In this document: positions 5,767 through 48,960 of the stretch, in pieces | How positions within the stretch are numbered: the first letter of the stretch is position 1 | How the letters are laid out: each line of letters begins with the position of its first letter | Assembly (NCBI GenBank): GCA_017625615.1 | Contig: JAGAKP010000022.1 | Coordinates: 1 to 51,201, forward strand | DNA from: Clostridia bacterium | GTDB lineage: Bacteria > Bacillota > Clostridia > Oscillospirales > CAG-382 | DNA: 51,201 bases | Direction of reading: 5' to 3' | Position numbers and translations under genes: made by a program | Notes under the pieces: generated by a model | Told to the model about the DNA's origin: nothing | The model's input: only the letters and a program-made list of their open reading frames with translations | Databases searched by the model: none

Positions 5767-5913
5767 CAAAATCCGCGATTTCTCGCGGATTTTTACCGAT
5801 ACGGCGCAACGGAGTTGCGGCATATCACGGAGCCGTGTGCGGCTCCATATCACGCACCGACAGGTGCATATCACGCGCTCACGGAGCGCATATCACTCAC
5901 CCCGCAGGGGTGA
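5767..5913. repeat. Hairpin train 1 (five hairpins, ATATCAC spacers)
   Basis: A leader hairpin AAAATCCGCGA / TCGCGGATTTT (5767-5793) and ACCGATACGG are followed by five different small hairpins: CGCAAC/GTTGCG (5805-5819), GGAGCCG/CGGCTCC (5829-5846), GCACC/GGTGC (5854-5867), GCGCTC/GAGCGC (5875-5889) and TCACCCC/GGGGTGA (5897-5913). Consecutive hairpins are joined by the constant spacer ATATCAC (CATATCAC for the first). Loops are three or four bases. The arms share no sequence between hairpins. No protein-coding signal fits. Confidence 0.85.
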
Positions 5914-5919
5914 TACACA

Positions 5920-6085
5920 GACGGCAGTGCAGTGCGAACAGTTCGCGGAAGAGGCAAGCCTCTTCCCTACAAGACAGACGTTACTTTCGTGCGAACAGCT
6001 CGCGGGCGCATCGTGATGCGCCCCTACGGTTTATGCATAGCCGTGGCGTGTTCGTAGGGGACGGCGTCCTCGACGTCCCGTTTCA
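5920..6085. repeat. Composite palindrome block downstream of train 1
   Basis: Contains direct repeats GCGAACAG(T/C)TCGCGG at 5934 and 5991, a GGAAGAGG/CCTCTTCC hairpin between them, GGGCGCATC/GATGCGCCC (6004-6023) and a CGTAGGGG palindrome (6053-6081). Most of the block recurs at 37734-37842. No gene is visible in 5574-6186. Confidence 0.75.
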
Positions 6086-17938: not shown

Positions 17939-18078
17939 TGAGAAATGAGTAAACCACCCCAAGAAACCTTTGGTTTCTCGGGGACCCCGGAATGAGGAAT
18001 TGTGGTAGCTTTTTTCGCGTTATACGCGAAAAAAGGTTTCCATACTTTTTCACTATTAACTCTTAACTTTTACCTTTT
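17933..18078. repeat. Heptamer-hairpin island 6 with H40
   Basis: The hom stop lies in heptamers. H40 variant CCACCCC-a-AGAAACC/GGTTTCT-CGGGG-ACCCCGG (17954-17990), heptamer AATGAGG, GTGGTAG, class I hairpin CTTTTTTCGCG-TTATA... CGCGAAAAAAG (18009-18034), GTTTCCATA, and TTMACTY heptamers. Confidence 0.85.
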
Positions 18079-37540: not shown

Positions 37541-37612
37541 AATTTGAAGATTTTTGCAACACCTTGCAAAAATCAACCATAATTCCTCGTTCCTCGTTTC
37601 TCATTTCTCATT
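37541..37612. repeat. Heptamer-hairpin island 15
   Basis: Class I hairpin GATTTTTGCAA-CACC-TTGCAAAAATC (37549-37574), AACCATAA and TTCCTCG/TTTCTCA heptamers ending at a T/A run, then hairpin train 2. Confidence 0.85.
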
Positions 37613-37615
37613 AAA

Positions 37616-37731
37616 AAAATCCGCTATGCGGATTTTTACCGAAACGGCGCAACAGCGTTGCGACATGTAACGCACCGACAGGTGCATGTAACGCGCTCGG
37701 AGAGCGCATGTAACTCACCCCGCAGGGGTGA
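37616..37731. repeat. Hairpin train 2 (four hairpins, ATGTAAC spacers)
   Basis: Leader AAATCCGC/GCGGATTT then ACCGAAACGG, then CGCAAC/GTTGCG (37648-37662), GCACC/GGTGC (37672-37685), GCGCTC/GAGCGC (37693-37707) and TCACCCC/GGGGTGA (37715-37731), joined by ATGTAAC. Same hairpins in the same order as train 1, except that GGAGCCG is missing and the spacer differs. Confidence 0.85.
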
Positions 37732-37733
37732 TT

Positions 37734-37842
37734 GAAGACGGCAGTGTAGTGCGAACAGTTTGCGGGCGCATCGTGATGCGCCCCTACGGTTTATGCGTAG
37801 CCGTGGCGCGTTCGTAGGGGCGATTCACGAATCGCCCGCATA
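37734..37842. repeat. Composite palindrome block (copy of 5920-6085)
   Basis: AGACGGCAGTG, GCGAACAGTTTGCGG, GGGCGCATC/GATGCGCCC (37764-37783), TACGGTTTATGCGTAGCC, and a CGTAGGGG palindrome with a GGGCGATTC/GAATCGCCC stem (37814-37840). It lacks the 57-bp block present in the first copy. Confidence 0.75.
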
Positions 37843-37849
37843 AAAAAAC

Positions 37850-37926
37850 CAAAATCCGCTTCGGCGGATTTTTACCGAAGTTCCTCGTTTCTCGTTCCTC
37901 ATTTCTCATTCCCCATTCCTCATTAT
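37850..37926. repeat. Heptamer-hairpin island 16
   Basis: AAAATCCGC-TTCG-GCGGATTTT (37851-37873), ACCGAAG, then TTCCTCG/TTTCTCG/TTCCTCA heptamers. No left array. The rest of 37204-38069 up to the promoter holds no gene. Confidence 0.8.
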
Positions 37927-48747: not shown

Positions 48748-48960
48748 TCACCCCTGCGGGGTGAGTTACATGCGCTTTTGCAAGCGCGTTACATGCGCCC
48801 CGAAACGGAGCGCGTTACATGTCGCGAAGAACTCGCGACGTAATGGAAAAAATCCGCGTGCGGATTTTTACCGAAACGTTGCGCTGATGCGCAACATGTC
48901 ACGCACCGATAGGTGCATGTAGCGCACCGACAGGTGCATGTCACGCACTCGAAGAGTGCC
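48748..48960. repeat. Hairpin train 3 (eight hairpins, both orientations)
   Basis: First half with spacer GTTACAT: TCACCCC/GGGGTGA (48748-48764), GCGCTT/AAGCGC (48772-48787), GCGC-CCG/CGG-GCGC (48795-48813), GTCGCGA/TCGCGAC (48821-48839). A leader AAAATCCGC/GCGGATTTT follows (48848-48868). Second half with spacer ATGTCAC/ATGTAGC: GTTGCGC/GCGCAAC (48878-48895), GCACC/GGTGC twice (48903-48916, 48924-48937), GCACTC/GAGTGC (48945-48959). It ends 20 bases before the xseA ribosome site, so it is probably transcribed as part of a leader. Confidence 0.85.

Follow-up and report, generated by a model that had tools for sequence, protein, structure and literature searches.

The hairpin trains discussed here, chains of short hairpins joined by 7-nt linkers in a 51,201-nt stretch of a Clostridia bacterium genome (contig JAGAKP010000022.1; this whole stretch is called the window below), recall several described systems. 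Intervening sequences (IVSs) of 23S rRNA that encode an S23 protein have been called selfish elements, and a role in mobility has been proposed for their open reading frame (ORF). IVSs share with the elements described below the protein family (PF05635/TIGR02436) and inverted terminal repeats, but are located within 23S rRNA, from which RNase III excises them (PMC4990558). The present elements instead lie between protein genes and have 7-nt-phased terminal arrays, and the trains have no ORF. Dispersed heptamers of the TAACTGA type occur in Beggiatoaceae, Cyanobacteria and Bacteroidetes; like ours, they are 7-nt direct repeats found many times over between genes, and the report on them suggests a repeat-binding protein as a possible mobile element and names none (PMC4679880). 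The heptamers described here, in contrast, are tied to S23 genes and are spaced by hairpins in this clostridial family.

Repetitive extragenic palindromes (REPs) and bacterial interspersed mosaic elements (BIMEs) are likewise mosaic arrays of intergenic palindromes, and at some loci they have a partner protein, the REP-associated tyrosine transposase (RAYT) (PMC3733652). The trains differ in conserving the linker, which is of the form ATRTMRC or another dialect, and in having no detected Y1 transposase; the palindromes vary, with no conserved palindrome carrying the GTAG or CGTC tag of REPs. S23 also has ring-forming relatives with a four-helix bundle in the Avd accessory proteins of diversity-generating retroelements. 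Avd acts together with a reverse transcriptase, whereas the reverse transcriptase (PF00078) expected of a group II intron or a diversity-generating retroelement was absent from this genome and from its genus.

We favour, with moderate confidence, a reading in which short dispersed elements, related to mobile S23 genes, have the trains as their arms and the spacer as a heptamer tag. An S23 element would consist of an S23 ORF of ~110 aa and adjoining 7-nt-phased repeats. In most bacteria these repeats would be tandem heptamers without hairpins, inverted on one side of the ORF relative to the other; in this clostridial family one strand-specific hairpin would often stand between heptamers, resulting in heptamer-hairpin-heptamer trains. 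Each element lineage would have its own heptamer, and the linkers of one arm, being repeats of a single tag, would agree. In train 1 and in trains 2-4 of the window (Table 1), the S23 gene would have been lost or never present.

Heptamer arrays at S23 genes

The S23 four-helix-bundle domain (PF05635) recurred in five loci among the genes neighbouring trains, where TIGR02436 and PDB 2rld matches were also found. This recurrence was a post hoc lead, and the association was therefore tested on S23 genes themselves, with a linker-based detector applied to 90 S23 loci of the family and to 56 LeuS/XseA loci as controls; strict hairpin-chain detectors missed most trains at S23 loci because they required near-perfect stems. 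A same-strand train ending ~60 nt before the S23 domain was present at 26 of the 90 S23 loci and at 1 of the 56 control loci (Fisher p=1.4e-5), and some 7-mer occurred three or more times in the 300 bp upstream at 62/90 and 6/56, respectively. Lag-7 repeats occur in 21/90 upstream and 11/87 downstream S23 flanks, with lags 4-6 and 8-12 near zero, and no lag-7 array was found in the distant flanks of S23 genes (0/66 and 0/53). In the rest of the phylum, 6/27 and 10/27 S23 flanks show lag 7. Some S23 genes carry bare tandem heptamers in place of hairpin trains. The period is 11 nt (GTTAAAC) rather than 7 at the L530 and L548 S23 genes, and 8 nt at L558, L564 and L565.

Linker dialects at S23 genes include ATTTCAC, ATTTCAT, ACTTCAC, ATATCAC, ATATAAC, ATATCGC, AATGATG and others. 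A tag is shared by 51% of S23 pairs that are 75-90% identical and by ~3% of pairs below 60% identity (Mantel p=0.0005). This tracking of S23 similarity by the dialect can reflect either co-inheritance or recognition.

The genome to which the window belongs has six S23 genes. The one at C11:47404 is flanked by ATATCAC trains, the one at C11:44113 by ACTTCAC trains and those of C73 and C62 by heptamers, and the C48 gene sits between an ATGTAAC arm and an ATGTCAC/ACGTAAC arm. These dialects match those of the window, train 1 corresponding to C11 and trains 2-4 to C48. The upstream arm of C48 also has the GCACC/GGTGC hairpin in the order common to trains 1, 2 and 4, and CCGATAC/CCGAAGC in the C48 element resembles the leader of the trains; the flank of this element had no match in the genus. 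The related C48 and C11 elements contain a PF05635 ORF and the window trains none. In addition, scanning the window for short periods gave 28 bare heptamer arrays at lag 7 and, at the other lags, 0-1. The heptamer arrays lie at 1834, 5621, 8599, 10729, 13606, 20856, 21537, 22452, 34203, 37580, 37880, 40932, 46448 and other positions, are mostly of the AACGAGG/AATGAGG type, often surround a GATTTTTG..CAAAAATC hairpin, and in many cases resemble the sequences flanking the S23 gene of C73, a comparison in which the reversed window gave 0 hits. From the C11 and C48 dialects and the C73-like arrays, we read the window trains and arrays, most economically, as S23-less derivatives, and the linker as probably the heptamer by which an S23-gene element is tagged, more than one tag being in use within one genome.

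On plasmids of Cyanobacteria and Azospirillum, S23 genes are flanked by heptamer arrays in inverted orientation. Lag 7 was found at 8 of the 14 non-redundant loci of this set, a Gemmatimonadota locus included, and lag 8 at 2, while the distant flanks gave lag 7 at 2/14. Two plasmid S23 genes are precise insertions with a 5-bp target duplication. At the first site, the flanks are 98-99% identical between Trichormus plasmid C and Nostoc linckia plasmid2, and the insertion that holds the S23 copy is 428 bp long, with a duplicated GTAAT; at a second site, in Nostoc plasmids, a 417-bp S23 insertion has TTCTA on both sides. Some plasmid S23 genes lie between nrd genes and others between cas genes; at L554, L558 and L561, all on cyanobacterial plasmids, the neighbours of the inserted S23 gene are CRISPR genes (cas6/cas4, cas10/cmr3). 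At L567, a decayed S23 copy occupies a plasmid site that is empty or full in other plasmids.

To our knowledge, S23 proteins have no assigned function beyond the idea of IVS mobility, and no report linking S23 to heptamers was found in the open-access literature, subscription journals being outside the search. We give roughly even weight, for and against, to the broader proposition that S23 proteins mark out a class of mobile elements that is widespread and has not been described, with a 7-nt array, bare or hairpin-spaced, serving as recognition tag, each lineage having its own heptamer and S23-less derivatives being spread through genomes. Many long-known heptamer repeats would then belong to this class, and the switch between trains 1 and 2 would be a tag change between S23 lineages. 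According to this model, the S23 protein may recognise the tag and may help the trains move. The link would thus pair dispersed 7-nt repeats, previously partnerless, with a candidate protein partner, and would provide a model for the joint change of all units in a repeat array. It would also describe a class of elements whose insertion produces 5-bp duplications even though the sole known protein has, as far as we know, no recognised nuclease.

Linker change within and between trains

Trains 1 and 2 carry their hairpins in the same order, as the first-pass annotation had noticed. Train 1 reads [CGCAAC GGA GTTGCG]GC-ATATCAC-[GGAGCCG..CGGCTCC]-ATATCAC-[GCACC GACA GGTGC]-ATATCAC-[GCGCTC ACG GAGCGC]-ATATCAC-[TCACCCC GCA GGGGTGA], and train 2 reads [CGCAAC AGC GTTGCG]AC-ATGTAAC-[GCACC GACA GGTGC]-ATGTAAC-[GCGCTC GGA GAGCGC]-ATGTAAC-[TCACCCC GCA GGGGTGA]. 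The GCACC and TCACCCC hairpins do not differ between the two, and the CGCAAC and GCGCTC hairpins differ in the loop only. The GGAGCCG hairpin, which that annotation took to be lost or gained, is confined together with its linker to train 1. The reported joint switch from ATATCAC to ATGTAAC is equally clear, as all three common linkers are separated by one identical pair of substitutions, an agreement with odds of ~(1/189)^2 if two random changes per linker are assumed.

The homology extends to the 5' leader ACCGAWACGG and the 3' tail GACGGCAGTGYAGTGCGAACAGTTYGCGG. Since this leader, which follows a terminator-like hairpin, and this tail are common to both, the two trains represent a single repeat in two copies. 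The preceding hairpin varies among copies, the copy at C73:15421 having an unrelated one (AAAAAGCACCC..GGGTGCTTTTT), and therefore need not be part of the repeat. A census by pattern searches and retrieved stretches found five copies of train 1 in the genome (C7:5822, C9, C30, C42 and C73:15421) and three of train 2 (C7:37665, C70 and C73:91), plus a diverged ATGTAAC relative at C72. With several copies of each, the linker switch is thus a difference between subfamilies and is not limited to this one pair of trains.

Among the 63 genomes of the family, 35 contain the pattern ATRTMRC x3, which permits mixing among eight linker types; the metagenome-assembled genomes are fragmented. ATATCAC triples occur in many Oscillospiraceae/Clostridia assemblies and in 93 stretches of viral contigs, which were excluded from the train analysis. 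At two loci in Prevotellaceae contigs (L088 and L109) the linker pattern caught tandem TGATATGACTATATCA palindromes, apparently another kind of repeat. The train parser, which is blind to linker identity and was run on real loci mostly retrieved by linker patterns, found 245 trains in these loci and 2 in reversed sequences.

In a non-redundant set of 88 trains from 25 genomes, 60 trains were uniform, compared with 37.6±2.1 expected by within-genome shuffling, and 197/235 adjacent linkers were identical, compared with 147.5±4.5; related trains of different genomes are not fully independent, and the shuffling leaves this kinship in. The claim that spacers are homogenised within trains is borne out by these counts. 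Uniformity at every locus, which had been put forward as the check, does not hold: 28 of the 88 trains, including the window's train 4, mix linkers, and the opposite arms of one divergent element often differ in linker (L318, L066, L298 and window 48765/48896). The unit of homogenisation is therefore the arm and not the locus, and within-train homogenisation is a strong tendency, acting per arm, rather than an absolute rule.

In mixed trains the linker type changes block-wise (66 runs, against 75.7±2.7 when shuffled). In one homologous arm found in several genomes the linkers form a graded series, which runs, with C for ATATCAC and A for ATATAAC, from C-C-C-A (L299) through C-C-A-A (L298, L286 and L051) and C-A-A-A (L066 and L308) to A-A-A-A (L318). 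Concerted change of spacers with retention of the hairpins, the earlier interpretation, gains support from this series, and we reread it as a change of tag in a family of mobile elements. A new tag would spread unit by unit along an arm, leaving block-wise intermediates while the hairpins stay; the block pattern suggests that it may be spread by template switching, or by slippage, between linkers of identical sequence.

Weighing the explanations

Loops of the types C-GNA-G and C-GNNA-G predominate on the linker strand, and these loops and GA/GA mismatches are confined to it. Its internal mismatches include 21 GA/GA and no TC/TC, and this strand is predicted to be stabler than its complement under both RNA and DNA parameters. 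From these properties, together with compensatory changes that preserve the stems and an excess of G.T over A.C mismatches (39:17), we conclude that the hairpins are maintained as structures of one single strand, either RNA or single-stranded DNA. If RNA, the trains could be terminators, 3' untranslated region structures or a sponge RNA, with a protein binding the single-stranded linkers and selection for binding keeping them uniform. Their leader position before S23 genes would agree with this and would also fit autoregulation of S23. We nevertheless think such an RNA element improbable: flanking genes show no preferred direction (33 with the train, 28 against), GNYA tetraloops are as frequent as GNRA (40 and 41), unlike the GNRA selection typical of RNA, and several linker types occur together in one genome.

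Plain concerted evolution, in which slippage or template switching homogenises linkers that have no role in recognition and the S23 neighbourhood is incidental, accounts for the graded, block-wise series. The linkers are also the sole sequence identical between units, and the differing arms of one element indicate a process in cis. This explanation, however, predicts neither the S23 association with its fixed train-to-gene distance, nor hairpin-free 7-nt arrays at S23 genes in other phyla, nor dialects that track S23 protein similarity, and we consider it unlikely. The idea of REP/BIME-like repeats mobilised by a Y1 tyrosine (RAYT-type) transposase is already contradicted and has, in our judgement, hardly any chance of being right. 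Like REPs (PMC3733652), the trains are dispersed intergenic palindromes in mosaic arrays, few of them (9/108) between divergent genes; apparent placements inside ORFs are probably due to over-long mechanical ORFs. REPs, however, conserve the palindrome and vary the spacing, the reverse of what trains do. The Y1 transposase (PF01797) was rejected as a candidate, with 0 matches in this genome and its genus and 18 of the 63 family genomes positive; it was not detected in the six train-rich genomes G003, G004, G006, G007, G011 and G013.

Several observations weigh against the proposed relation of trains to mobile S23 genes. Hairpin trains accompany no more than a fraction of the S23 genes, and neither the window trains nor most train loci of the family adjoin an S23 gene. 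In some genomes with a minority dialect, such as G018 with ATATCGC, the examined loci held no S23 gene with that tag. Lag-7 arrays also occur in some LeuS/XseA control flanks (4/56 and 3/56), which we attribute to the dispersal of derivatives. The exact empty sites come from bare-heptamer elements of cyanobacterial plasmids and not from hairpin trains. Finally, S23 is not known to have a catalytic domain to which cutting and joining could be assigned, and neither a reverse transcriptase nor a Y1 transposase was detected in this genome.

Other features of the window

Trains 3 and 4 form a divergent two-arm element in the nusB-xseA interval. In two sister species (XseA 87% identical) this interval has no train and the insertion is thus absent, the flanks being too diverged to fix its exact ends. 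The leuS locus was dropped as an empty-site test because gene order downstream is not conserved. An Rfam scan of the window matched a tRNA only, with no known structured RNA family at the trains.

Table 1. Trains, associated hairpins, conserved flanks and nearby heptamer arrays in the window.
Feature	Position	Strand	Remarks
Terminator-like hairpin before train 1	5768..5793	.	
Train 1	5805-5913	+	Five hairpins; ATATCAC linkers at 5822, 5847, 5868, 5890
Conserved tail of train 1	5920..5948	+	GACGGCAGTGCAGTGCGAACAGTTCGCGG
Heptamer tandem array, CTCGTTC-type	37580..37614	-	Directly left of train 2 terminator; lag-7 scan; its heptamers also flank the S23 gene at C73
Terminator-like hairpin before train 2	37615..37637	.	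AAAAATCCGC/GCGGATTTTT
Leader between terminator and train 2	37638..37647	+	ACCGAAACGG; common to trains of both subfamilies
Train 2	37648-37731	+	Four hairpins; ATGTAAC linkers at 37665-37671, 37686-37692, 37708-37714
Conserved tail of train 2	37737..37765	+	GACGGCAGTGTAGTGCGAACAGTTTGCGG; identical in train 1 and further copies
Heptamer tandem array right of train 2	37880..37925	-	Lag-7 scan
Train 3	48748-48839	-	Hairpins with ATGTAAC x3; arm of divergent two-arm element; copies C73:6060, C21
Central terminator-like hairpin of trains 3/4 element	48848..48869	.	C48 has its S23 gene there
Train 4	48878-48959	+	Second arm; mixed linkers ATGTCAC, ATGTAGC, ATGTCAC

A second heptamer dialect, of the TTCACTA/TTCACTT type, is present at window positions 18049, 21611, 25004 and 47803. 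A large inverted repeat (GCGGGCGCATCGTGATGCGCCCCTACG / CGTAGGGGCGATTCACGAATCGCCCGC) at 37761-37840 belongs to a separate dispersed family that adjoins trains.
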